Source of the DNA: Microbulbifer aggregans
Lineage (GTDB): Bacteria; Pseudomonadota; Gammaproteobacteria; Pseudomonadales; Cellvibrionaceae
Reading direction: 5' to 3'
Assembly: GCF_001750105.1 (NCBI RefSeq)
Contig: NZ_CP014143.1
Coordinates: 1,240,001 to 1,304,000 of the forward strand
Length of the DNA: 64,000 bases
Shown here: positions 48,337-58,639 of the stretch, piece after piece
How positions within the stretch are numbered: the stretch's first letter is position 1
Layout: each line of letters starts with the position of its first letter
Position numbers and translations under genes: made by a program
Notes under the pieces: generated by a model
Seen by the model: only the letters and a program-made list of their open reading frames with translations
The model's database searches: none
What the model was told of the DNA's origin: nothing

Positions 48337-49800
48337 ATGAAATACAAAGACCTGCGTGACTTTATCAAGCTGCTGGAAAAACGCGGCCTGCTGAAACGCA
48401 TCCAGCACCCTGTCGACCCCAATCTGGAAATGACAGAAATTGCCGACCGCGTCCTGCGTGCCGGTGGTCCCGCGCTGCTATTTGAAAACCCCGTTGGATT
48501 CGATACGCCGGTGCTCGCCAACCTGTTCGGCACCCCGGAGCGCGTTGCCCTGGGCATGGGCCGGGAATCGATCACGGAACTGCGTGAAGTGGGCGAGCTG
48601 CTCGCCTTTCTCAAGGAGCCGCAGCCCCCCGAGAACCTCAAGGATGCCTGGGAAAAATTACCTGTGTTCAAGCAGGTGCTGAACATGGGGCCCAAGGTGG
48701 TAAAGAAGGCGCCGTGCCAGCAAGAGGAGCTGAGCGGTGACCAGGTGGATCTCTACCAGCTGCCAATCCAGACCTGCTGGCCCGGCGATGCGGCACCGCT
48801 GGTGACCTGGCCGCTGGTGATTACCCGCGGGCCGGAGAAGAAGCGCCAGAACCTCGGCATCTACCGCATGCAGCTGATCGGTAAGAACCGCCTGATCATG
48901 CGCTGGCTCTCTCACCGTGGTGGCGCACTCGACTTCCGCGAGTGGTGCCAGCGTAATCCCGGCAAACCCTACCCGGTGGCGGTCGCCCTCGGTGCCGACC
49001 CGGCAACCATCCTCGGCGCGGTGACACCGGTCCCGGATACCCTGTCTGAATATGCCTTTGCCGGACTCCTGCGCGGTGACAAGACCGAGGTCGCCGAAGC
49101 CACGTTGAGCGACCTGCAAGTGCCTGCCAGTGCCGAATACGTGCTGGAAGGCTATATCCACCCCGACGATATGGCCGATGAAGGCCCCTATGGTGACCAT
49201 ACCGGTTACTACAACGAGGTGGACAGTTTCCCCGTCTTTACGGTGGAGAAAATCACCCATCGTAAAGACCCCATCTACCACAGCACCTATACCGGGCGGC
49301 CGCCCGATGAACCCGCGGTGCTCGGCGAGGCGCTAAACGAAGTATTCGTGCCGATCCTGAAAAAGCAGTTCCCGGAAATCGTCGATTTCTACCTGCCGCC
49401 CGAAGGCTGCTCCTACCGCCTCGCCGTCGTCAGCATGAAGAAACAGTATCCGGGCCATGCCAAGCGGGTAATGATGGGTGTCTGGTCCTTCCTGCGCCAG
49501 TTCATGTACACCAAGTTCGTGATTGTCACCGACGACGACGTCAACACGCGCGACTGGAAGGACGTGATCTGGGCCATGACTACCCGTATGGACCCGGTCC
49601 GTGACACGACCATGGTGGAGAATACTCCGATCGACTACCTGGATTTCGCCTCGCCGGTTTCCGGGCTGGGCTCCAAGATCGGCTTTGACGCCACCAATAA
49701 ATGGCCGGGGGAGACCGACCGTGAATGGGGCCGGCCCATTGAGCGGGACCCGGATGTGGTGAAGAAGATCGATGAGATCTGGGGCGAGCTCGGCCTCTGA
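48337..49800 (+). CDS. ubiD: 4-hydroxy-3-polyprenylbenzoate decarboxylase UbiD
   Basis: The 487-aa prenylated-FMN enzyme decarboxylates the ubiquinone precursor. It has [22 protein letters not shown] at the start, [22 protein letters not shown], the catalytic region [13 protein letters not shown] and the C-terminal [18 protein letters not shown]. Length is typical. It is monocistronic, and prFMN supply by UbiX must be encoded elsewhere. Confidence 0.95.
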
Positions 49801-49835
49801 CCACCAAAACCAATCACTGACCCAGGGAGGGGACG

Positions 49836-50237
49836 ATGCAAGTGATCAAAACCATCCGGCCCGGCCAGAAAGGCGCTCGCCGCTTCGAGCGCCGGTTTGG
49901 CAAGCGGCTCTGCGCCGTGCGGTACCGCAATTCCCCATGCGGTAACAAAGTTCTCACCACGGTTGAACTGATCGTCGATGAGCGTGATAAGCCCGCGCCG
50001 GGCGTTTCCCATTCCGGATTACATGCTTACCAGCGGGCGGAACCGGTGGCGCTCTCGATTGGTGCAGAAGAAAACGCCATGCGGCGTCTGCTCAAACAGG
50101 CTGGGGCTCGCTGGAGCCAGCAAGCGCGAGCTTGGGTCGCAACCCGCGAAACCGTCGCGACGCTCGGCCTCAATCATCGAGTTGTTGAAGGGCTGATTGA
50201 CGCCTGTACCGATGTGGACACCAGTATCGAATTGTGA
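49836..50237 (+). CDS. Hypothetical basic protein bordering the cassette array
   Basis: The 133-aa product is basic and soluble: KTIRPGQKGARRFERRFGKRL, then VRYRNSP and TVELIVDER, which resembles small proteins I associate with plasmids and integrative elements, of unknown function. A ribosome site, CAGGGAGGGG, lies 5 bp upstream. It is GC-rich like the chromosome, unlike the cassettes, and ends one base before the first palindrome of the left border. I see no catalytic motif. Confidence 0.72.
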   Translation: MQVIKTIRPGQKGARRFERRFGKRLCAVRYRNSPCGNKVLTTVELIVDERDKPAPGVSHSGLHAYQRAEPVALSIGAEENAMRRLLKQAGARWSQQARAWVATRETVATLGLNHRVVEGLIDACTDVDTSIEL

Positions 50238-50255
50238 GTGGTTAGATGTGACCAC
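50238..50255. promoter_or_regulatory. Palindrome 1 at the array's left border (operator-like)
   Basis: GTGGTTAGATGTGACCAC begins immediately after the preceding stop codon. It is an imperfect 18-bp inverted repeat and a near copy of 50296-50313 (two differences). Confidence 0.6.
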
Positions 50256-50277
50256 TTATGATCATATATGGATACCC

Positions 50278-50291
50278 CTAGTTAGAACTAG
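50278..50291. promoter_or_regulatory. Central 14-bp perfect palindrome
   Basis: CTAGTTAGAACTAG is a perfect inverted repeat between the two 18-bp palindromes. Half-sites read GTTAGAAC, which contains a GTTRRR-like core. Confidence 0.55.
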
Positions 50292-50295
50292 TAAC

Positions 50296-50313
50296 GTGGT
50301 CAGATATGACCAC
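50296..50313. promoter_or_regulatory. Palindrome 2 at the array's left border (operator-like)
   Basis: GTGGTCAGATATGACCAC is a perfect 7-bp stem (GTGGTCA/TGACCAC) around GATA, 58 bp from its near copy at 50238. A GTTAAAT core-like motif follows at 50329-50335, just before the first cassette gene. Confidence 0.65.
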
Positions 50314-50333
50314 GCATAAGAATAAACTGTTAA

Positions 50334-50654
50334 ATGTATATGGATAGATACGCGGTTTCTGCTCGATTAAGTCTGACCTCAATATTCGCAATGATTGCGT
50401 TTGTTGTGATATTGAACTTTTTACCGGGCGAACTATTTAAATACGCGCTGATGGACTTGTTTCTTGAAGTTTCAGGTATTCTTTTGACTACCAGTTTCAC
50501 TCTACCAGGTCTTTATCTCTGGGTTACGGGGTTTAAAAGGTATGACGAAGCTTTGGGCGGGTTCGGGCCAAAGTTGGTACTGTATTTCGTTTTTACAATA
50601 CCTTATGCGATCTACCTACAGTACCAGTATGAAAGCAGTGCAAAAAACATTTAA
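50334..50654 (+). CDS. Cassette 1: small membrane protein
   Basis: The 106-aa protein has three predicted membrane segments (about residues 13-30, 42-63 and 79-97) and no recognised family. The first ATG overlaps the core-like GTTAAAT; a second in-frame ATG is at 50340. No good ribosome site is seen, so translation may be weak. attC1 begins inside the last codons. Confidence 0.7.
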   Translation: MYMDRYAVSARLSLTSIFAMIAFVVILNFLPGELFKYALMDLFLEVSGILLTTSFTLPGLYLWVTGFKRYDEALGGFGPKLVLYFVFTIPYAIYLQYQYESSAKNI

Positions 50655-50705
50655 CAAGGCAATGCAGCGGACTGCTGCGCAGCCGCGCTGATTGCGGCGT
50701 TATGA
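50649..50705 (+). repeat. attC site 1 (57 bp)
   Basis: Inverse core ATTTAAC (50649-50655) fits RYYYAAC exactly; the middle forms GCAGCGG/CCGCGC-type pairing; the core GTTATGA closes it. It is a short attC. Confidence 0.82.
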
Positions 50706-50712
50706 GTCAAAG

Positions 50713-51180
50713 ATGAGTAAATCGCGAGAATTAAAATATGAGCCAAGAAGCATTTACTTAACCTTTAGTTTATTGGCATTCTTCTCGTTCCTGACTGCAA
50801 TAGCTGTGAAAAACATATACGTCGCAAACGGTATGTTTTTTGTTCTTTCAACCGCGAGTTACTTTGTTGTCAACGTAACAAACGGAAAAGTGTTCTTTTT
50901 CGATAGAAAGGTTGTCGGAACCTACAATTTGCTGTATCCGTTTTCCGTGATGGCAGGAGCGCTCATAGTTTTGGGGGCAGGCTCAGTGAATGTCATTCCC
51001 TTTGAGATTTTAGCTGTTAACTCTCTTGCAGCAGCCGGTTTGCTATTTGTAGCAAACTACATATTGCTACGTAAATTTTGGAATGGCTTTGATTCAACGC
51101 TGAGCATTTTATGTGTGTCGCTCCTGGCTGGAGTGGGTGTTACGTTCAGCCTAAGCTCTGCGCTCTGGAGTCACTCATAA
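50713..51180 (+). CDS. Cassette 2: small membrane protein
   Basis: The 155-aa protein has four predicted membrane segments (LLAFFSFLTAIAV, MFFVLSTASYFVV, PFSVMAGALIVLG, LLAGVGVTFSLSS). It belongs to no family I recognise. The ATG at 50713 has AAAGATG spacing from the attC core; in-frame ATG-like codons upstream lie inside attC1. Confidence 0.75.
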   Translation: MSKSRELKYEPRSIYLTFSLLAFFSFLTAIAVKNIYVANGMFFVLSTASYFVVNVTNGKVFFFDRKVVGTYNLLYPFSVMAGALIVLGAGSVNVIPFEILAVNSLAAAGLLFVANYILLRKFWNGFDSTLSILCVSLLAGVGVTFSLSSALWSHS

Positions 51181-51318
51181 CAAACGCAAGCAGGATGCTA
51201 CGGCCCTTCGGGCCTCCGCGGGACGCCCAACGCTATGCACATTTTGTGCGGGTCGCTGCGCTCCCAGTTTCGCACAAAATGTGCATAGCATTGGTCGCCC
51301 CTGTTGCGGGCGTTATGA
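51175..51318 (+). repeat. attC site 2 (144 bp, long family)
   Basis: The site begins TCATAAC and ends GTTATGA. Its core is a large inverted repeat, GCTATGCACATTTTGTGCG with its complement (51230-51289), around a GC-rich tip. It belongs to the family shared with attC4, 7, 8 and 11. Confidence 0.9.
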
Positions 51319-51327
51319 GTCTTAAGT

Positions 51328-51657
51328 GTGGAGAACGAAGCAATCCTTAGCGAACGCTCCAAATGTTCAAAAGCCGCAATTACCGTCTTGGTAGCTATGT
51401 TTATTGCGGGCTTACTCCTTTGGTTGCTTCTGGCCCCAGTTGAAAAAGGGTCTGTCGTGTTTTGGAGTGGTGTAGTTCTAATGGCTATCCCAGGTTATGT
51501 TGCCGGAGAGAGCTTAGGTTCTTTGGGGTTAGGGGCTGATTTCGTTAAGAAATTATCCAAGTCATTACGCATAATATTTGGCTTTTCTTGGGTGCTAATA
51601 TGCCTGTTAATTTTTAGTGCAGTTTTAGCGTTTTTGTCATCAATGGTAGGAACATAA
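51328..51657 (+). CDS. Cassette 3: small membrane protein
   Basis: The 109-aa protein has three predicted membrane segments (VLVAMFIAGLLLWLLL, VVFWSGVVLMAIPGYV, IIFGFSWVLICLLIF). No family is recognised. It starts with GTG, 10 bp after the attC2 core. Two attC starts follow in tandem. Confidence 0.72.
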   Translation: MENEAILSERSKCSKAAITVLVAMFIAGLLLWLLLAPVEKGSVVFWSGVVLMAIPGYVAGESLGSLGLGADFVKKLSKSLRIIFGFSWVLICLLIFSAVLAFLSSMVGT

Positions 51658-51677
51658 CAAGCAATGCCACAATCAAC
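51652..51677 (+). repeat. Truncated attC remnant
   Basis: ACATAACAAGCAATGCCAC resembles the left half of attC1, but a second attC start begins at 51678 with no core in between. It is likely a scar from cassette loss or recombination between attC sites. Confidence 0.65.
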
Positions 51678-51752
51678 TCATAACAAGTCAAGGCAGCATC
51701 GCCACTTCGTGGCTGGACGCGCTAAAGCGCGCAGCTGCTTGATGCGTTAGGG
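51678..51752 (+). repeat. attC site 3 (75 bp)
   Basis: TCATAAC at the start, inner inverted parts GGCAGCATC/GATGC and CGCGC/GCGCG, and the core GTTAGGG at 51746-51752. Confidence 0.82.
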
Positions 51753-51774
51753 TGAGAAATAAACGAGGTGATAG

Positions 51775-52206
51775 ATGAACGAAAAACCAAAAGTAATTAC
51801 TGTCACACAGATTGTTCTCGTGATTTTTCAACTGATCATGGCGTATGCATATATATTTGTAGTTAGATCATTACTGGCTCCAGCTAATGATTTTGATAGC
51901 TACGCCGGAGCCATTCTTGCTGTGGCGATATCAACACTAATTTTCTGGCTTCCTTTGATTTCATTTATATTGATAATCTATAAGCATTGGATTGGTCGGT
52001 GGTTGGCAATAGCAGCTCTATTATTCTTACTAATTAGTTCATTAATTAGCCCAGAGAGTAGGCTCAGTGGATCAATGGCACATGATCTAGGGGTATATAC
52101 GGCACGTACTGTATTTCTTATGCTTCCGTTAACCTTGATACTTTTCCTGATATTCTCGAGAGCGGTGAGAGAGTACTTCGCAAACCCTAACAAAGCCAGG
52201 CAATGA
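51775..52206 (+). CDS. Cassette 4: small membrane protein, stop inside attC
   Basis: The 143-aa protein has four predicted membrane segments. The ribosome site GAGGTGA precedes the ATG. The reading frame enters attC4, so the last seven residues (NPNKARQ) are encoded by the recombination site itself. No family is recognised. Confidence 0.78.
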   Translation: MNEKPKVITVTQIVLVIFQLIMAYAYIFVVRSLLAPANDFDSYAGAILAVAISTLIFWLPLISFILIIYKHWIGRWLAIAALLFLLISSLISPESRLSGSMAHDLGVYTARTVFLMLPLTLILFLIFSRAVREYFANPNKARQ

Positions 52207-52328
52207 AGCTCCGGGCGTATGGCCTCCGCGGGACAGCTTGCCTTGTGCGCATTTTGCGCAGGTCGCAGCGCTCCCAATTTCGCGCAAAATGCGCACAACG
52301 TAAGCTGCCCCTGCTGGCGGCGTTATAT
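52185..52328 (+). repeat. attC site 4 (144 bp, long family)
   Basis: Starts CCCTAAC, ends GTTATAT. Inner palindrome: TTGTGCGCATTTTGCGC with GCGCAAAATGCGCACAA. It is homologous to attC2, 7, 8 and 11. Confidence 0.9.
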
Positions 52329-52334
52329 TTTTCG

Positions 52335-52568
52335 ATGAAAGTTAAGCTTCCTGACACAATTGAAGATTTCTTGCTGCTATGTTGCAGTGTTCTTTGCTTA
52401 TGGTATTCGCTGTACTCCATCGGTAGAGGCGAGATCTTTATGAAAGTCGAATCCTTTCGTCTTTCAGAAAGCCCACTGGGCTTCATCGTTTCAGTCGCCT
52501 TTATAACTGTTCTAGGCTTATGGACCGCGTATCTCGCCTTAACTCAGAATCAGGACGAAGCGAGCTAA
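52335..52568 (+). CDS. Cassette 5: very small membrane protein
   Basis: The 77-aa protein has two predicted membrane segments (FLLLCCSVLCLWYSLYSI and FIVSVAFITVLGLWTAYL). A longer frame starts within attC4, but the ATG at 52335 follows the attC core normally. No family is recognised. Confidence 0.7.
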   Translation: MKVKLPDTIEDFLLLCCSVLCLWYSLYSIGRGEIFMKVESFRLSESPLGFIVSVAFITVLGLWTAYLALTQNQDEAS

Positions 52569-52575
52569 AGTCAAA

Positions 52576-52662
52576 ATATAACAAGCGGTTGTAATCGCCG
52601 CGATAGACGCGGCTGGGACGGCTTACGCTACGCTCCAGCCGCCCCTAAACCGGGCGTTAAGT
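52576..52662 (+). repeat. attC site 5 (87 bp)
   Basis: Starts ATATAAC, and ends GTTAAGT, an exact GTTRRRY core. Inner arms GGACGGCTTACG and CGGGC are paired imperfectly. Confidence 0.85.
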
Positions 52663-52678
52663 GAGTAAAGGAGTACCG

Positions 52679-52924
52679 ATGAAGTCATTTATATTTAATC
52701 TGGCCGGACTTCTTGGCTCTTGGCAATTTATTGAGCTTTCTTCTGAAAATTCACTCAATTCAGTCCTTGCACCTATCGTTTTTGGCGGCTTTCTCATATC
52801 TAGTATTCTTTGGTTCATTGTTAAATTTGGTGTGAATCAGCGAACCAATGGCGGAGCATATTTTGGGAGAAATGCCGGTAGTCATGGCGGTGACTGCGGA
52901 GGTGGGGGGGATGGCGGGTGCTAG
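52679..52924 (+). CDS. Cassette 6: membrane protein with Gly/Cys/His-rich tail
   Basis: The 81-aa protein has two predicted hydrophobic segments, then a striking tail, GSHGGDCGGGGDGGC, which could bind metal. Strong ribosome site AAAGGAG lies 5 bp before ATG 52679, so the upstream GTG in the attC core is rejected. I know no named family for it. Confidence 0.75.
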   Translation: MKSFIFNLAGLLGSWQFIELSSENSLNSVLAPIVFGGFLISSILWFIVKFGVNQRTNGGAYFGRNAGSHGGDCGGGGDGGC

Positions 52925-52929
52925 CCCCT

Positions 52930-52987
52930 ACTTAACAATCACGGGCAGTGATGCTGCGGCCCTCCGGGCCTCCGCGGGGCGTTATGG
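52930..52987 (+). repeat. attC site 6 (58 bp)
   Basis: ACTTAAC (52930-52936) fits RYYYAAC; the core is GTTATGG. The middle GCGGCCCTCCGGGCCTCCGCGGGG is shared with the left parts of the long attC family. Confidence 0.82.
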
Positions 52988-53006
52988 CTCGTAAAGGAAT
53001 TCGAGT

Positions 53007-53300
53007 ATGGAAACTACACCAAATAGAAAATGGATGTATCAGGTTGGGCTTATTTTGCCTATCGTTTCAGCTTGCCTTTTTGTCCTGGCCTTCTTGAGTG
53101 GCTCACAATCTGTATTACGGTTGCACCTAGTTTCGTTTGGCTATCTACCCTTTTTGGGGCTGGCTTTAGCAATTTCTTACTTATGTTTTAGCTTTATCGA
53201 TAAAATTCGATATACCATCTCAGGCTATAGAAACTTGATTGCTGCGTCTCTACTGGTGCTCCTTTATGGGTTATGGTTGTGGGCAGTTTCAAAGTACTGA
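53007..53300 (+). CDS. Cassette 7: small membrane protein
   Basis: The 97-aa protein has three predicted membrane segments (LILPIVSACLFVLAFL, PFLGLALAISYLCFSFI, AASLLVLLYGLWLWAV). Ribosome site AAAGGAA precedes the ATG. No family is recognised. Confidence 0.76.
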   Translation: METTPNRKWMYQVGLILPIVSACLFVLAFLSGSQSVLRLHLVSFGYLPFLGLALAISYLCFSFIDKIRYTISGYRNLIAASLLVLLYGLWLWAVSKY

Positions 53301-53310
53301 GTAGCCTCAG

Positions 53311-53454
53311 CCATAACAAAGCCGGGCAATTTGCTCCGGGCCTGCGGCCCTCTGCGGGACAGCTTACCTTGTGCACGTTTTGCGCCGGTCGCTGTGCTCC
53401 CATTTTTGCGCAAAATGCGCACAAGGTAAGCTGCCCCTGCCGGCGGCGTTAGCT
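53311..53454 (+). repeat. attC site 7 (144 bp, long family)
   Basis: Starts CCATAAC, ends GTTAGCT. Palindrome CTTACCTTGTGCACGTTTTGCGC is paired with GCGCAAAATGCGCACAAGG. Confidence 0.9.
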
Positions 53455-53467
53455 ATTTGGTCGAACT

Positions 53468-53842
53468 ATGAAATTCATTTCCCGATGGCATGTTATTGTT
53501 AAGTACATGCTAAAACACAAAAGAGAGGAAAATTTTTTCCCACTGATGACCTGCTCCTATTGGTTTACGGTGGTCGTTTCAAGCATCATCTATTTAGTAT
53601 TAGGTAATGCTGATGTGCTGCACCTAAAAAGCGACCTAGTGAGCATTTTTGGTGTCGTGCTCTTCTTCGGTGTAATTTTTATAGTCCATTTATCTATACG
53701 GAATATTCAGACGTATGATGAGGCTGAGGTATGGTATAGCTTGCTCAGTAAGAATCAGAAAATTGGCCTTAACGTGGTCGTTGCCAGCTTCATGGCAGTC
53801 AGTTTTATTTCGCTACTTACTTGGGCCGTTGTGGAAATGTAG
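53468..53842 (+). CDS. Cassette 8: small membrane protein
   Basis: The 124-aa protein has a basic N-terminus and three predicted membrane segments (FTVVVSSIIYLVLG, IFGVVLFFGVIFIVHL, GLNVVVASFMAVSFISLL). The ATG lies 14 bp after the attC core. No family is recognised. Confidence 0.75.
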   Translation: MKFISRWHVIVKYMLKHKREENFFPLMTCSYWFTVVVSSIIYLVLGNADVLHLKSDLVSIFGVVLFFGVIFIVHLSIRNIQTYDEAEVWYSLLSKNQKIGLNVVVASFMAVSFISLLTWAVVEM

Positions 53843-53849
53843 TGAATGC

Positions 53850-53993
53850 AGCTAACAAAGCCAGGCATTTTGCTCCGGCCCTTCGGGCCTCCGCGGGACA
53901 GCTTACCTTGTGCACGTTTTGCGCAGGTCGCTATGCTCACATTTTCGCGCAAAACGCGCACAAGGCAAGCTGCCCCTGCCGCCGGCGTTATGT
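53850..53993 (+). repeat. attC site 8 (144 bp, long family)
   Basis: Starts AGCTAAC, ends GTTATGT. The long palindrome is nearly identical to attC7. Confidence 0.9.
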
Positions 53994-54003
53994 GTAAATT
54001 GAG

Positions 54004-54309
54004 ATGAGAAAAACATACTCGTTAAAAGAAATTGAAATACCGATGGAAATAGCTGAGTTAAACGGGCCGTTCCAAGAGTTCAAACAAGACGTCTCTATTG
54101 TCTCTGTAAAATTAAACTCGGGTGAAATTTTCGAGCGTGTAATGCTTCTCTATCCAAATTACGTAATTTCAGTAGCGGAAGAGTCAGAGTTACCTTTTAA
54201 TCAAAAAGAGGTTTCTGAGGTCCTCCAGTCTCCTCAAAGTCTTCGTAGGCATAAAGATTCAAGCTGGGTATATTGGTACAACCAAAATGACTTTAGTAAA
54301 AACACATAA
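54004..54309 (+). CDS. Cassette 9: soluble hypothetical protein
   Basis: The 101-aa protein has no membrane segment or signal peptide; it is mixed alpha/beta, acidic, with a Trp/Tyr-rich end (SSWVYWYNQNDF). No family is recognised. Size and composition resemble immunity or antitoxin-like proteins, but nothing specific supports that. Confidence 0.72.
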   Translation: MRKTYSLKEIEIPMEIAELNGPFQEFKQDVSIVSVKLNSGEIFERVMLLYPNYVISVAEESELPFNQKEVSEVLQSPQSLRRHKDSSWVYWYNQNDFSKNT

Positions 54310-54387
54310 CAAGGGCAGGCAAAATCGCCCACAAGAAGCGTGGTCTGGACGCGCAAAAAGCACGCGCCTTTGCTGCCGGCGTTATAT
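54304..54387 (+). repeat. attC site 9 (84 bp)
   Basis: Starts ACATAAC, ends GTTATAT; inner GGGCAGGCAAAATCGCCC and GCGTG/CACGC pairs. The inverse core lies across the previous stop codon. Confidence 0.82.
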
Positions 54388-54404
54388 CTCAGAGAGAACG
54401 TGAC

Positions 54405-54866
54405 TTGTTTGAAATATTTTTTCTCCTGCTGCTGGCATCTCTAGGTTTTTACTCGATCTATATCTTGCTCGTCGGCGAAGTGTATCGAATTGAGCCGGTT
54501 GTAATAAAGGATTATGACGGTGAGTTGCTTAGGAGAGTGCGAGTCACCTCATTCGATAAACAGTATTATTCATTGTTAGAAGGCAATAAATTCCCTAATT
54601 TTTTGTTCTCTTCGAACTCTCTGCTTTTGAGGTGGGGATGCCCAATATTTAGCCGGGCTGAATTTCAGAATTTGATAGATAGTTTGGACCGGGGTGTATC
54701 AAGTACCCACAAAGGACTAAATAAAGTTAATATAAAAACTTATGTTGGCGCACAAAATGGCGAGGCAATAGTTAAGATTTATCACTTACTTGGGTTCTCG
54801 CAGGTATTTATTAACAGGGCTGCAATCAACGAAATTAAGTCTGACCTCGTAGAGGGAGAGATATAA
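54405..54866 (+). CDS. Cassette 10: membrane-anchored hypothetical protein
   Basis: The 153-aa protein has one N-terminal membrane segment (FFLLLLASLGFYSIYILLV) and a soluble domain that could face either side. It starts with TTG. No family is recognised. Confidence 0.7.
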   Translation: MFEIFFLLLLASLGFYSIYILLVGEVYRIEPVVIKDYDGELLRRVRVTSFDKQYYSLLEGNKFPNFLFSSNSLLLRWGCPIFSRAEFQNLIDSLDRGVSSTHKGLNKVNIKTYVGAQNGEAIVKIYHLLGFSQVFINRAAINEIKSDLVEGEI

Positions 54867-54953
54867 CAAGCGGCTGTTATCGCCCCTGTGGGGCTGGGAC
54901 GGCCTTTCCGCCGCTTCGCGGCTCCAAGTCCGGCCCAAAGCCGGGAGTTATGC
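54861..54953 (+). repeat. attC site 10 (93 bp)
   Basis: Starts ATATAAC and ends GTTATGC. Inner arms GCGGCT/CCCCTGTGGGGC and CCGCCGCTTCGCGGC form hairpins. Its 5' part resembles attC5. Confidence 0.86.
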
Positions 54954-54970
54954 ATTCGAGAGAATCTAGG

Positions 54971-55312
54971 ATGACTAAAAAATTAATAATATTATTTCCG
55001 CTAATTGCGGCCATTGCTCTTGCAATATTGTTCAAGCCGCAGCTCAAAGCTATTTTCTCTGACCAGCTGACTCGCTGGGAAATTGACAAAATAAAGGCTT
55101 CAAAAGTTGACGTGGGTTGCACCCAGGCAGTATGTGGAGTCAAAGCGATAGAAAGTGAAGTTTCGTTTCAATTTACTTTCAATAATAGAAGTCAGCTTTC
55201 CGAGCGAGTTGTATTGTTAAATCGGATTATAGAAGGCTGGCCGTCCACGAAATCGGAGTGTAGCTCGTTCACAAATATTGGTGGTTTAGATGTTTGCTAT
55301 CTGTGGCAATAA
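54971..55312 (+). CDS. Cassette 11: exported or anchored protein with four cysteines
   Basis: The 113-aa protein has an N-terminal hydrophobic segment (LIILFPLIAAIALAILF) and a soluble part with four cysteines (two in GCTQAVCG, then two near the end), which fits a disulfide-bonded periplasmic domain. The ATG at 54971 follows CTAGG; an earlier ATG lies in the attC10 core. No family is recognised. Confidence 0.7.
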   Translation: MTKKLIILFPLIAAIALAILFKPQLKAIFSDQLTRWEIDKIKASKVDVGCTQAVCGVKAIESEVSFQFTFNNRSQLSERVVLLNRIIEGWPSTKSECSSFTNIGGLDVCYLWQ

Positions 55313-55340
55313 ACATCAAGTGAACTCGGTGGTGCGGCAT

Positions 55341-55483
55341 GCATAACAAAGCCAGGCAGTATGCTGCGGGCCTTCGGCCCTCCGCGGGACGGCTTACCTT
55401 ATGCACGTTTTGCGCACTCGCTTCGCTCCCATATTTGCGTAAAAAGCGCACAAGGTAAGCTGCCCCTGCTGGCGGCGTTATGC
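55341..55483 (+). repeat. attC site 11 (143 bp, long family)
   Basis: Starts GCATAAC, ends GTTATGC. The arms CTTACCTTATGCACGTTTTGCGC and GCGCACAAGGTAAGC pair as in attC7 and attC8. Confidence 0.9.
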
Positions 55484-55520
55484 TGGCGGCCATCCACTTT
55501 TTTGCTAATGAGAAATAAAA

Positions 55521-55823
55521 ATGAAGCCATATTTAAAGATGATTACTATGACTCCGATCTTGATGTTTTTATTTGCATCAATTGTATATGCGCAGACTGA
55601 TGTGAAGGAATACAAAAAGGGAACAGGGACTTCAATGCTCGTCCCCTCTATTCAGAACGATAAGGATCTTCCAAAGCTGAGTGGATCTGAAAAAAAGCAA
55701 ATTGATTCCTCGCAGAAGCGCAAAAGAAGTAATGAAAGCGCAAAAGCAAAAGCAAAAGCAAAACCGGCACAAACTTTCACAGGCAGTGGCCCAGCAATGG
55801 CAAGGGATAATCCTGATGCTTAG
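55521..55823 (+). CDS. Cassette 12: exported Lys/Ala-repeat protein
   Basis: The 100-aa protein has a signal peptide ending VYAQT and a basic, disordered mature part with KAKAKAK from a tandem GCAAAA hexamer repeat. It has no recognised domain. The ATG follows AATAAAA. Confidence 0.7.
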   Translation: MKPYLKMITMTPILMFLFASIVYAQTDVKEYKKGTGTSMLVPSIQNDKDLPKLSGSEKKQIDSSQKRKRSNESAKAKAKAKPAQTFTGSGPAMARDNPDA

Positions 55824-55851
55824 GTTTCTAACTTAGTTTTGAAGCTTCACA

Positions 55852-55969
55852 GCATAACAAGTTACGGCAGAAAGACGTCTTACTTTGTGCATTTTTTGCG
55901 AAGTCTGTGCGCCCATGTTTTTGGGCAAAAACCACGCAAAGTAAGCCGCCGCTGCGGACGGCGTTAGGT
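55852..55969 (+). repeat. attC site 12 (118 bp)
   Basis: Starts GCATAAC, ends GTTAGGT, an exact core. Arms GTCTTACTTTGTGC and GCAAAGTAAGCC pair. It is related to the long family but shorter and diverged. Confidence 0.86.
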
Positions 55970-55986
55970 TCAAGTAAGGTTCGGAC

Positions 55987-56454
55987 ATGGAGCAATGGAT
56001 CAATCATCTTATCATCAAACCACTGCTCATTATTTCCATTGTGGTCCCGATCGCATATGTAGAAGTCTCAGAAAATGGGCTCACAGTGGAGTCCATTTTC
56101 CTGATTGCGATAGTATTGGGCACATGGGTGTCTATCTCACTACTCGAAAAATACATCAAGCATCATGTGCGTTATTACGTGCCTATGAAGAGGCTGGAGG
56201 TAGATGTTGTATTAAGAAAGGCCGCAACCTATCTAGGAGTTAGGTATTCTTGCAGCGAGCCTAAAAACAATTCGTTCTCTGGAGTTCTCACTAGTCAAGG
56301 ATTTACAGAAAAGTGGGTTATCACATCTGAAAATGGAAAGGTACAAGTCTCCGTATCTGGAGACTACCCGTTCCCGATTTCACTTTATAATTGGTGGCGC
56401 ATTCACAGGGATGTTGCTGAAGAGCTATGGTCACAGGGGATGCGCCGTGCCTAA
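55987..56454 (+). CDS. Cassette 13: membrane-anchored hypothetical protein
   Basis: The 155-aa protein has two predicted N-terminal membrane segments and a soluble domain ending NWWRIHRDVAEELW. No family is recognised. The ATG is 18 bp after the attC core. Confidence 0.74.
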   Translation: MEQWINHLIIKPLLIISIVVPIAYVEVSENGLTVESIFLIAIVLGTWVSISLLEKYIKHHVRYYVPMKRLEVDVVLRKAATYLGVRYSCSEPKNNSFSGVLTSQGFTEKWVITSENGKVQVSVSGDYPFPISLYNWWRIHRDVAEELWSQGMRRA

Positions 56455-56520
56455 AAAACTCAAGCACGCGGACCAAATTTCTCATGTGCTACGATTTGCC
56501 CGGTGTTGCGCGCGTTGGGC
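56449..56520 (+). repeat. attC site 13 (degenerate inverse core)
   Basis: The left end, GCCTAAAAAACTCAAGCACGCGG, has lost the AAC of the inverse core; the right end GCGCGTTGGGC keeps an exact GTTRRRY core. The middle shows CACGCGG and CGCGCG pairing. It may be inactive. Confidence 0.6.
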
Positions 56521-56547
56521 AGCCCAAAGAACTCGGGGATATTCTTA

Positions 56548-57093
56548 ATGACAAACCGGAAGATGGATTTAACCTGTAGCTGCGGGCAGGTAGTGTTGAA
56601 GGTTCTCGGTCGTCCAATAGTTAATGCTGAGTGCCTGTGTAACGATTGCCAGACTGCTGGGGAGATTCTGCAATCGTTGCCTGGTGCCCCATCCACTTTG
56701 GACAGTAAAGCTGCAACACGCTTTGTGCTTTATCGAAAAGATAGGGTATGGTGCGACAAAGGGCAGACTTACTTATGTGAACATCGGTTGTCGAAGCATT
56801 CCAAAACACGTCGTGTGGTCGCTACGTGTTGCAACACGCCAATTTTCCTAGAGTTCACTAGTGGTCATTGGTTGAGCATATACGGTGGCCTCTGGCCTGC
56901 GGAGGCCTTACCTGCGCTTGAAATAAGGACGATGACTCGGGATCGGCCCAGCGGCGTCGAACTCCCAGATGACGTGCCCAATCCAAGCACTCACACAATT
57001 TCTTTTTTCGCCAAGCTTTTTGGGGCTTGGGCTGCCATGTATTTCCGCACCCCGAAGATTGACTTTGTTAGAGGAGGCTTGAAAAAACCATGA
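56548..57093 (+). CDS. Cassette 14: GFA/Mss4-like zinc protein (DUF6151-like)
   Basis: The 181-aa protein has a pattern of cysteines (CSCG, ECLCNDCQ, then TCCNTP) typical of the glutathione-dependent formaldehyde-activating (GFA) zinc fold, and resembles the DUF6151 group of this fold. A GFA enzyme activity is not shown. The ATG at 56548 lies 28 bp after the attC13 core. Confidence 0.68.
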   Translation: MTNRKMDLTCSCGQVVLKVLGRPIVNAECLCNDCQTAGEILQSLPGAPSTLDSKAATRFVLYRKDRVWCDKGQTYLCEHRLSKHSKTRRVVATCCNTPIFLEFTSGHWLSIYGGLWPAEALPALEIRTMTRDRPSGVELPDDVPNPSTHTISFFAKLFGAWAAMYFRTPKIDFVRGGLKKP

Positions 57094-57168
57094 TGTCGAT
57101 TGTTCCGCAGTAGACCCTACCGAGAAAATTGAGCAAGTTTTGATTTCTTGAGTCTGGGTATGTGTGCC

Positions 57169-57220
57169 GCCCAACAAAGCACTTCAGTCGACGGCTCCGC
57201 CGCAGCTGAGCTTCAGCATA
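57169..57220 (+). repeat. Degenerate attC site 14
   Basis: GCCCAACAAAGCACTTCAG has an exact RYYYAAC inverse core and CTGAGCTTCAG near its right end. No GTTRRRY core follows, so the right end is lost. Confidence 0.5.
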
Positions 57221-57261
57221 ATTGCTAACTAGATTATGGTTCTAACAGAAAAAGAAAAACC

Positions 57262-57999
57262 ATGGCAGAAGTTTTAATTCCACTTCCCGATAAGGACTTT
57301 GATGTAACCGAGGTGGCTGTTCCTTGGCGATTACTCACAAGCGCGGGGCATCATGTGATTTTTGCGACTGAAAAAGGTACGGGTGCTCCTGTCGCAGATC
57401 CGTTGCTACTTACTGGGGTTATTTTCGGGCAGCTTGGTGCTGAAAAGGAGGCAAAAGCATTCTATAGGGAGATGTGTGAAGACAGGGCATTTAACAACCC
57501 CCTGTCGTGGTCAAGCCTGAACGTCGACAATTTTGATGCGTTAATTTTGCCCGGCGGGCATGCACCTGGTATGCGCCAATACCTTGATAACTCAAGTCTG
57601 CACAAGTTTGTTTCGGATTTCTGGGCTACAAATCGTCCTGTGGGTGCGATTTGTCATGGGGTAGTGGTTCTCGCACGCGCGAAGAGCGGTGATGGGAAAT
57701 CCATATTGCATGGCAAGAAAACCACGTGTCTTCCCAAGTACATGGAAAGGCTCGCCTATTGTCTGACGTTTTGGAAGCTCGGAAACTATTACCGTACGTA
57801 CCCTGCTTATGTTGAAGCTGAAGTCCGCGATGCTTTGTCGAGCCCAGGTGACTTCGTACGAGGACCGATCAATCTTGGTAAGCGTGGGACCTCTGCAGAC
57901 CATAAAGCTGCATTTGTGGTTGAAGATGGTCGCTATGTGTCGGCTCGCTGGCCCGGAGATGCCTATCTGTTTACTGAGCGGTTCATGTCATTGCTGTAA
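57262..57999 (+). CDS. Cassette 15: DJ-1/PfpI family protein
   Basis: The 245-aa protein is a class I glutamine-amidotransferase-like protein. The nucleophile-elbow Cys lies in GAICHGVVVLA, with FDALILPGGHAPGM before it and FVVEDGRYVSARWPGD at the end, as in Hsp31/PfpI relatives that act as chaperones, glyoxalases or peptidases. Substrate is unknown. It is directly followed by a truncated attC. Confidence 0.83.
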   Translation: MAEVLIPLPDKDFDVTEVAVPWRLLTSAGHHVIFATEKGTGAPVADPLLLTGVIFGQLGAEKEAKAFYREMCEDRAFNNPLSWSSLNVDNFDALILPGGHAPGMRQYLDNSSLHKFVSDFWATNRPVGAICHGVVVLARAKSGDGKSILHGKKTTCLPKYMERLAYCLTFWKLGNYYRTYPAYVEAEVRDALSSPGDFVRGPINLGKRGTSADHKAAFVVEDGRYVSARWPGDAYLFTERFMSLL

Positions 58000-58012
58000 C
58001 AAGCGGGCGTGA
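57995..58012 (+). repeat. Truncated attC at the right end of the array
   Basis: TGTAACAAGCGGGCG at the stop codon matches the left ends of attC5 and attC10. No palindrome or core follows, so this marks the decayed right border of the array. Confidence 0.6.
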
Positions 58013-58147
58013 GCTATCTTGCACAAATGAAGAGCAAAATCGAAGGGCGCGATAATAGAAAATAATGACGCCATATTACGACTACTGCGTGGCAAAATCT
58101 GACCCTGCTCGGCAAGCCACGAAATCCAGGCAGTTCGCTACCATCCA

Positions 58148-58639
58148 ATGATCCGCATTGCCAACACAGGTGACGTCGTCGCTATCGCCAGAATCTACAA
58201 CCATTATGTAGAAAATACGGCTGTGACGTTTGAGGTTAATCCGGTTTCCGAAGAAGAAATGGCATCCCGGGTAGCCGAGTGCCAGGGGAGTCGCCTACCC
58301 TGGCTAGTGGCAGAGGATCCCAATGGGGTGGTAGGTTATTGCTACGCCACGAAATGGAAAGGGCGTGCGGCCTATCAGTACTCGGTCGAGGCTTCGGTTT
58401 ATGTGGCGCCATCTTCGCTTGGCAGGGGGTGGGGAACCCGCCTCTATAAGCAGCTATTGGTCGAGCTTAGGCGCCGGGACCTGCATGCAGTCATCTGTGG
58501 TATCACATTGCCCAATGAGGCCAGCGTTGCCCTGCATGAGAAGCTTGGCATGGTCAAGGTCGCCCATTTCAAAGAGGTCGGAAGGAAGTTCGATCAGTGG
58601 ATCGATGTCGGGTATTGGCAATGCCTGCTAACAGACTAA
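58148..58639 (+). CDS. Phosphinothricin/L-amino acid N-acetyltransferase-like GNAT
   Basis: The 163-aa protein matches the Pat/MnaT type of GNAT: MIRIANTGDVVAIARIYNHYVENTAVTFE, then SVEASVYVAPSSLGRGWGTRLYKQLL (acetyl-CoA binding) and ITLPNEASVALHEKLGM. These acetylate methionine sulfone/sulfoximine or related amines. No attC follows, so it is outside the array. Confidence 0.88.
   Translation: MIRIANTGDVVAIARIYNHYVENTAVTFEVNPVSEEEMASRVAECQGSRLPWLVAEDPNGVVGYCYATKWKGRAAYQYSVEASVYVAPSSLGRGWGTRLYKQLLVELRRRDLHAVICGITLPNEASVALHEKLGMVKVAHFKEVGRKFDQWIDVGYWQCLLTD

Follow-up and report, generated by a model that had tools for sequence, protein, structure and literature searches.

An intI-less cassette array behind ubiD in Microbulbifer aggregans begins at its own attI-like site and is probably supplied in trans

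We analyzed a 64,000-nucleotide stretch of DNA from Microbulbifer aggregans (hereafter the window, part of one contig of 3,864,326 bases) that carries a tandem array of integron cassettes, each a small gene followed by an attC recombination site. No integron integrase gene (intI) adjoins the array, which lies behind ubiD and a gene for a 133-aa protein (g133) and begins at an attI-like site of its own. Comparison of sequences makes it likely that the array is an intI-less integron platform with a fixed attI-like site, filled and turned over in trans by a distant integrase (IntI); the catalyst is most likely IntI_A, encoded at 2.23 Mb. The evidence comes from the head of the array, from an exactly copied first cassette, from the same chromosomal place in other Microbulbifer genomes, and from related cores at other arrays.

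The array and its attI-like site

The attI-like site, made up of a core and an arm, occupies 50238-50332 at the proximal end of the array. The features of this end and the attC sites behind it, with expect values (E) under two covariance models, R1 and R2, are as follows.

48337-49800, + strand: ubiD (3-octaprenyl-4-hydroxybenzoate carboxy-lyase), conserved chromosomal anchor (Pfam UbiD, 287 bits)
49836-50237, + strand: g133, 133 aa, uncharacterized, linked to the attI platform
50238-50319, + strand: attI arm with palindromic units, clearest at 50296-50313 (GTGGTCAGATATGACCAC)
50320-50332, + strand: attI core GAATAAACTGTTA, putative crossover at GTT (50329)
50649-50705, + strand: attC 1 (R1, E = 4.7e-8)
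51175-51318, + strand: attC 2 (R2, E = 2.7e-37)
51678-51752, + strand: attC 3 (R1, E = 1.4e-5)
52185-52328, + strand: attC 4 (R2, E = 1.4e-31)
52576-52662, + strand: attC 5 (R1, E = 4.7e-6)
52930-52987, + strand: attC 6, short (R2, E = 0.003; R1, E = 0.13)
53311-53454, + strand: attC 7 (R2, E = 4e-38)
53850-53993, + strand: attC 8 (R2, E = 1.5e-34)
54304-54387, + strand: attC 9 (R1, E = 1.2e-7; R2, E = 3.2e-5)
54861-54953, + strand: attC 10 (structural scan alone; an 88-bp stretch is 92% identical in the intI_B array)
55341-55483, + strand: attC 11 (R2, E = 2.9e-32)
55852-55969, + strand: attC 12, the last recognizable one (R2, E = 1.1e-9)

R1 (arms) and R2 (long) were built solely from attC sites outside the window. 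R1 used alone missed the long attC sites (2 matches with filters off), and R2 was therefore built for these. Together they called 11 distinct attC sites on the + strand, with R2 matching at eight (starting at 53311, 51175, 53850, 55341, 52185, 55852, 54304, and 52930; E from 4e-38 to 0.003) and R1 at six (50649, 54304, 52576, 51678, 55852, and 52930; E from 4.7e-8 to 0.13). Six R2 matches on the minus strand cover the inner stem alone (77-82 nt) of attC sites already called on the + strand, and are echoes of them. A structural scan, which alone called the twelfth site (54861-54953), returned nine sites at a strict threshold over both strands of the 64 kb, all on the + strand and all within the array; in 20 dinucleotide shuffles of 50301-58020 the same scan found no site in 19 and one site in the remaining one. 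In total there are 12 intact attC sites on the + strand (50649-55969), and up to three remnants near 56450, 57171, and 57997 were seen by eye and called by no model. The clear array thus spans 50329-55969, and a decayed tail runs from 55987 to about 58012. G+C content is lower in the array (0.449) than in ubiD and the gene that follows it (0.604). Rfam at its gathering score gave no match in the array region.

The initial annotation of this DNA had described gene-attC units on one strand, had looked for at least ten attC calls as support, and had named a lack of covariance matches as grounds for giving the array up. Models and scan agree on the single strand, 11 sites were called by covariance models (12 with the scan), and both R1 and R2 matched. 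Its estimate of about fifteen cassettes holds only when decayed remnants are counted, the number of intact attC sites being 12.

Homology of the left flank to M. flavimaris WRN-8, the nearest named relative, ends at 50332, i.e., at the GTTA of GAATAAACTGTTA. The core appears to be of the GTTRRRY type, with GTTAAAT at 50329, where the exactly copied cassette starts. In the M. aggregans genome (G000), the 13-nt core GAATAAACTGTTA occurs three times, at the ubiD site, at 977468, where it heads an intI-less array, and at 3032913, where no attC was found and where the motif looks like a chance occurrence. A 14-nt form, GAATAAAACTGTTA, has two copies, one at attI_A (2231172) and one heading another intI-less array (2652962); the window core lacks one A relative to the attI_A core. 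R1 run across the whole genome returned further attC clusters at 2.65, 0.42, and 0.975 Mb. The genes upstream of the four intI-less arrays (g133 at the window site and, as we take them to be by eye, acnB, a resistance-nodulation-division (RND) efflux gene, and a topoisomerase IV-like gene at the other three) all share the direction of the array, so that read-through expression is possible. The fourth intI-less cluster (G000:C1:422302-424200, L083), behind the topoisomerase IV-like gene, is decayed and has a degenerate core, GAATAAATTATTGG.

Integrases in the genome

PF00589 matched seven proteins in the genome, one of them in the window. NCBIfam models resolved four of the PF00589 proteins into two integron integrases, one XerC, and one XerD; the window's sole PF00589 recombinase scores as XerC, in keeping with the earlier statement that no IntI lies there. 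Two proteins in the whole genome exceed the TIGR02249 cut-off of 265: IntI_A (419.6 bits; 2,229,820-2,230,914, minus strand) and IntI_B (418.7 bits; 3,466,128-3,467,117, plus strand), which are 51% identical. By whole-genome PF00589 and TIGR02249 searches, the nearer intI is 0.94 Mb from the window array. Both proteins align to VchIntIA (2a3v) over the catalytic domain and keep R, H, R, H, and Y, which we take to be the catalytic IntI residues, and near the start of both genes is a CTGT-N8-ACAG box, presumably a LexA box. Both intI genes are intact and face large arrays, of 14 attC sites for IntI_A and 15 for IntI_B (strict scan, 20-kb stretches, one odd 177-nt match dropped).

Cassette sharing between arrays

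The first cassette of the window array (50329-50702) is identical over 374/374 positions, from GTT to GTT, to G000:C1:2237225-2237598 in the intI_A array. The identity ends at the crossover points, the next base differing on either side (0 further nt). This cassette sits at the attI end, where new cassettes enter, and it is the only one common to the two arrays. The window array and the intI_B array have attC-like stretches in common, and arrays A and B have 701-bp and 525-527-bp segments in common at 100%.

We compared 50 arrays, counting as shared any segment of at least 250 bp at 95% or more. Within genomes, 24/101 array pairs shared a segment; 17 remained after masking of one unit resembling an insertion sequence (IS), and 15/101 after two further pairs with transposase-like open reading frames (ORFs) were dropped (G063 447k/3727k and G018 3096k/3177k; the longest ORF in each is presumably an IS3 or IS110 transposase). 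Between genomes, 1/1124 pairs shared a segment, both before and after masking. Two G021 pairs contain transposase-like stretches, yet further segments are also shared, and one G021 pair depends on a 308-bp segment of ambiguous type. In G019, an orphan (intI-less) site has in second place the cassette that stands first in the intI array, and the orphan's own first cassette also lies within the intI array.

Two repeated units were seen in these comparisons. One, of about 403 bp and with no long ORF, occupies the position next to attI at five sites, spread over three genomes, and also lies inside the G008 ubiD array (L117 2510-2917; L119, L121, and L116 in G008, L091 in G024, L222 in G019). Its right end is CTTTA rather than GTT, it has a LexA-like box (CTGTATGTAAATACAG) in G008, and Rfam gave no match to it; it is possibly a mobile SOS-responsive promoter or RNA cassette. 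The other, of 1.8 kb, lies between GTT-like ends in several arrays per genome (L150, L151, and L152 in G034; L124, L125, and L127 in G021; L154 and L069 in G019) and carries a 524-aa transposase-like ORF (read in G034); it is likely an attC-targeting IS.

The ubiD site across Microbulbifer genomes

ubiD was found in 47 of 48 Microbulbifer genomes and g133 in 25 of 48. A complete g133 follows ubiD in 22 of the 47, with attC directly behind in 22/22, and the stretch read behind ubiD-g133 contained no IntI at E = 1e-4 in any of the 22. In the 25 genomes without a complete g133 after ubiD, where stretches of 595-3000 bases were read, attC was found only in G011, with a type-B core, and G068 has a broken g133. 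In G017, g133, the core, and attC are on a different contig from ubiD, and in G013 all are 6.3 kb from it. The arm from the g133 stop to GTTA measures 84-108 bp in 22/24 genomes (cores recognized by script), and its palindromes are at 85% or more in 21/24, the palindromic units varying by clade. Type-B-like cores occur at the ubiD site in G059 (L253, GATATAAATGTTA), G001 (L074, ATTAAAATGTTA), and G011 (L221, GATACAAATGTTA).

When 17 ubiD loci were compared with the window by BLAST, attC-like stretches were common, the 81-aa cassette (about 81%) recurred in two, and cassette content differed wherever it was compared. The initial annotation had held that a fixed operon conserved in relatives would speak against an array; relatives hold other cassettes at the same site, and it is the operon that is refuted.

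Homologues of g133 number 36, and the named ones are all from Microbulbifer; the M. flavimaris WRN-8 protein is 93% identical. Searches of Pfam, NCBIfam, and PHROG gave no match, and the best match among PDB sequences had E = 0.43. The AlphaFold2 model is well defined (mean predicted local distance difference test score 89.9), and no PDB fold matched it better than E = 0.98; matches in a viral library (best E = 0.019, several named DUF5710) were too weak and were left unused. It is a fair guess that g133 is a putative DNA-binding partner of the arm palindromes. Arms of the C type also occur in G060 and G016, where no g133 was found, so g133 is not strictly required.

Related cores in the genus and beyond

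The pattern GAATAAAN{0,1}CTGTTA occurs in 154 copies in 35/48 Microbulbifer genomes, against 6 for the reversed control. We read the context, up to 8 kb downstream, of 45 sites (all five in G000 and 40 drawn from nine further genomes, with only two of six in G019). Downstream of 31/45 sites there was attC, 169 attC sites altogether, all of them in the sense orientation and none antisense. IntI was found within 2.5 kb at 7/45 sites, divergent, the alignment starting 271-282 bp from the core; among the 38 core sites without an adjoining intI, 24 had same-strand attC behind them. The 45 sites fall into 23 groups by upstream sequence, so many chromosomal places are used. Identity over the 25 nt preceding the core, compared across different loci at 44 sites, was 0.632 within genomes vs. 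0.553 between genomes (0/300 label shuffles). In G021, one orphan (3581k) matches attI_A of the same genome in 241 of 251 columns, and the match begins at the palindrome AGCCTATGGCT and excludes intI and its LexA-like box.

A second core pattern, type B (GATANAAATGTTA), gave 35 matches vs. 20 in the control, of which 30 of 35 were inspected; because this enrichment is weak, type-B orphans are recognized by context and not by counts. Type-B attI copies without intI are present at L205, L206, L208, L210, and others. At the acnB place, the orphan attI of G000 is of type A and that of M. flavimaris (G012) of type B (L158, L156), so that a clean empty site with insertion ends was not obtained; this difference between near relatives suggests either swapping of attI types or a hot spot.

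Among 194 genomes in an order-wide check, seven with at least two copies were inspected (G130, G207, G150, G132, G100, G104, and G145; 20 stretches, 21 sites), and two-copy genomes such as G042, G094, G146, G174, and G197 were left out. In G130 and G207 (one family) and in G150 and G100 (two more families), one copy lies beside an IntI match and the others do not; in all four, the core is preceded by a similar palindrome, and in each of them at least one orphan has attC behind it. G104 has two alike copies without IntI, and G132 and G145 do not follow the pattern. Over the 21 sites in the seven genomes, which belong to other families, identity of the 25 nt upstream was 0.628 within genomes vs. 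0.316 (0/1000 shuffles).

A proposed mechanism and the points against it

The simplest account would be a multi-platform integron, with one or two IntI and several attI sites, most of them without intI. The genus seems to hold several satellite attI sites per genome, with one distant enzyme feeding many collection points. An IntI, probably SOS-controlled, would excise cassettes from any array as circles, the attC of a circle would recombine with a satellite attI at GTT, which would place the cassette first, and arrays would thereby swap cassettes within one cell. That IntI_A (or IntI_B) is the catalyst, that the site is active as an attI, that SOS control applies, and that expression comes by read-through from host genes upstream are our inferences.

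Several observations weigh against this interpretation. The exact core is found nowhere in 13/48 genomes and at 16/22 ubiD-site arrays, variants occupying the site in G001, G019, G021, G028, G059, and G061. The scan found no attC at 14/45 sites and just one at four, and motif sites without attC may be empty, decayed, or missed. The window arm is of another type from the attI_A arm and unlike it, and a simple consensus scan of 49700-50800 gave no match to a sigma-70 promoter. Gene conversion, instead of a shared enzyme, could account for the similarity of attI sites within genomes. Five of the 15 sharing pairs, all in G008, have only the ORF-less 403-bp unit in common, leaving 10 without it; insertion sequences were discounted partly by eye; and G028, G061, and G015 show no within-genome sharing. 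Fragments of intI are kept at two type-B sites (L188 and L209), so some orphans arose by intI decay.

A wider reading, which we hold only tentatively and think rather unlikely, is that of a distributed integron. In it, attI modules of about 100-250 bp, without intI or its promoter, would disperse and settle behind host genes, giving several capture platforms per genome under one SOS-controlled integrase, with a genome-specific palindrome kept in step by concerted evolution; at ubiD, g133 would read the tandem palindromes and control recombination or expression.

Alternative explanations

The best-surviving alternative to supply in trans is an ordinary relic of the kind called CALIN (cluster of attC sites lacking an integron integrase), i.e., a formerly complete integron that lost intI and whose array is decaying. 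This route is known from the available portions of PMC8618304, PMC9024848, and PMC11389934, and the intI fragments at two type-B orphan sites in other genomes and the decayed distal tail of the window array would fit it. However, no trace of intI was found after ubiD in the 23/47 genomes with attC there, contents differ among the compared genomes, the first cassette is an exact copy from the intI_A array, and no gain of cassettes at the attI end would be expected of a relic. We consider it unlikely.

Integration at secondary (attG) sites has been described, and recombination needs a full arm at attI and not at attG. Off-target integration by IntI at such a site, followed by stacking of further cassettes, seems to us rather less probable than a relic. 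IntI is reported to need little sequence at secondary sites (PMC10127599, in the part available), but the site here is non-random. It is not the minimal, non-conserved GTT-type site expected of attG: an arm of 84-108 bp is present in 22/24 genomes, the exact core is at 16/22 of the ubiD loci, and the core recurs at several sites per genome beside attC, one of them next to intI.

That a rearrangement brought a distal piece of the intI_A array to the ubiD site is very improbable. The attC families and one cassette are common with the intI_A array, and attC-like stretches with the intI_B array, but a moved distal piece would not start with an attI core and arm, the sole cassette common with array A is the first one, and the idea is largely refuted by the occurrence of arrays at this place in 22 genomes with differing contents. 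We give next to no credence to a conserved operon that encodes small membrane proteins and has repeats between its genes, which the hydrophobic segments of transmembrane (TM) length (at least one in 12/13 ORFs from 50334 to 56454) might suggest and which the attC covariance matches and the different genes at the orthologous site in relatives refute.

Comparison with known systems

The initial annotation had offered two names, a CALIN or the far end of a chromosomal integron. The array is integrase-less, as stated; because its proximal end is its own attI-like site, the far end is rejected and plain CALIN is incomplete. With attC sites in tandem (11 by covariance models, 12 with the scan, where at least two define a CALIN) and no intI nearby, the array resembles a CALIN, and CALINs are described as mobilizable in trans (PMC12444791 and PMC11389934, available portions). 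Unlike a CALIN, it is headed by an attI-like site, which 22 genomes of the genus carry at one and the same chromosomal position, and new cassettes seem to be added at this attI end. Printed origins of CALINs are intI loss, rearrangement, or off-target insertion (PMC9024848, PMC8618304, and PMC11389934, as far as their available text goes); the lack of an attI platform implicit in these accounts does not hold here, given what appear to be a core and an arm at the proximal end. Going by sequence, then, the array would fit the CALIN definition on attC and intI and not on the implied absence of attI.

With sedentary chromosomal integrons (intI-attI-array), of which the genome has two complete ones, the array has in common the attC families, a related attI core, and polarity. 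It differs in that intI does not adjoin attI, ubiD and g133 being upstream instead, in that its intI is 0.94 Mb or more away, and in that one integrase has several attI sites. CALINs of Xanthomonas also recur at given places, namely seven chromosomal loci apart from the ilvD integron (PMC12444791); the available text of that paper mentions no attI, a distinction drawn from description and not from sequence. The attG and attI-like off-target sites of PMC10127599 (available part) likewise have IntI acting away from an attI in cis, but the window site is recurring and arm-bearing and not a scattered GTT. Delta-attI gene cassettes carry attI sequence away from its usual place; in the accessible part of PMC12901181 these form attI-type ends on the resistance cassettes of mobile integrons and are no chromosomal platforms. 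We found no intI-less multi-attI platform system in the literature searched, and IntegronFinder does not detect attI outside class 1 integrons (PMC9024848, available part).

If satellite attI sites are real, some CALINs would be working platforms, and behind different host genes, at several loci, a single integrase could insert a cassette in first position, where it would probably be expressed. It would then become possible to test directly whether integrons recombine in trans in nature, and there would be a route to finding attI sites.

Cassette genes and the right flank

The cassettes and the tail are as follows.

50329-50702, + strand: first cassette, ORF 50334-50654 (106 aa); exact copy of G000:C1:2237225-2237598 in the intI_A array
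50713-51180, + strand: cassette ORF, 155 aa, about 3 TM segments
51328-51657, + strand: cassette ORF, 109 aa, about 3 TM segments
51775-52206, + strand: cassette ORF, 143 aa, about 4 TM segments
52335-52568, + strand: cassette ORF, 77 aa
52679-52924, + strand: cassette ORF, 81 aa; DNA about 81% identical in the ubiD-site arrays of two other genomes
53007-53300, + strand: cassette ORF, 97 aa, about 3 TM segments
53468-53842, + strand: cassette ORF, 124 aa, about 3 TM segments
54004-54309, + strand: cassette ORF, 101 aa, no TM segment
54405-54866, + strand: cassette ORF, 153 aa
54971-55312, + strand: cassette ORF, 113-120 aa
55521-55823, + strand: cassette ORF, 100 aa
55987-57999, + strand: decayed tail with a 155-aa ORF, a GFA-like ORF, a ThiJ/PfpI-like ORF, and attC remnants

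The cassette products had been described as almost all unrecognized, and they remain so: none of the 13 ORFs from 50334 to 56454 reached a Pfam cut-off, and none of the 10 array ORFs submitted to PADLOC gave a match. In the tail, Pfam scored GFA at 24.4 bits (cut-off 24.3) and ThiJ_like at 138 bits. The M. flavimaris array is shorter and has no match to this tail. Directly behind the window array, at 58148-58639, is a gene for an ArsN1 family B arsinothricin N-acetyltransferase (217.8 bits, cut-off 210), and behind the M. flavimaris array lies a stretch 71% similar to this ArsN1 region.

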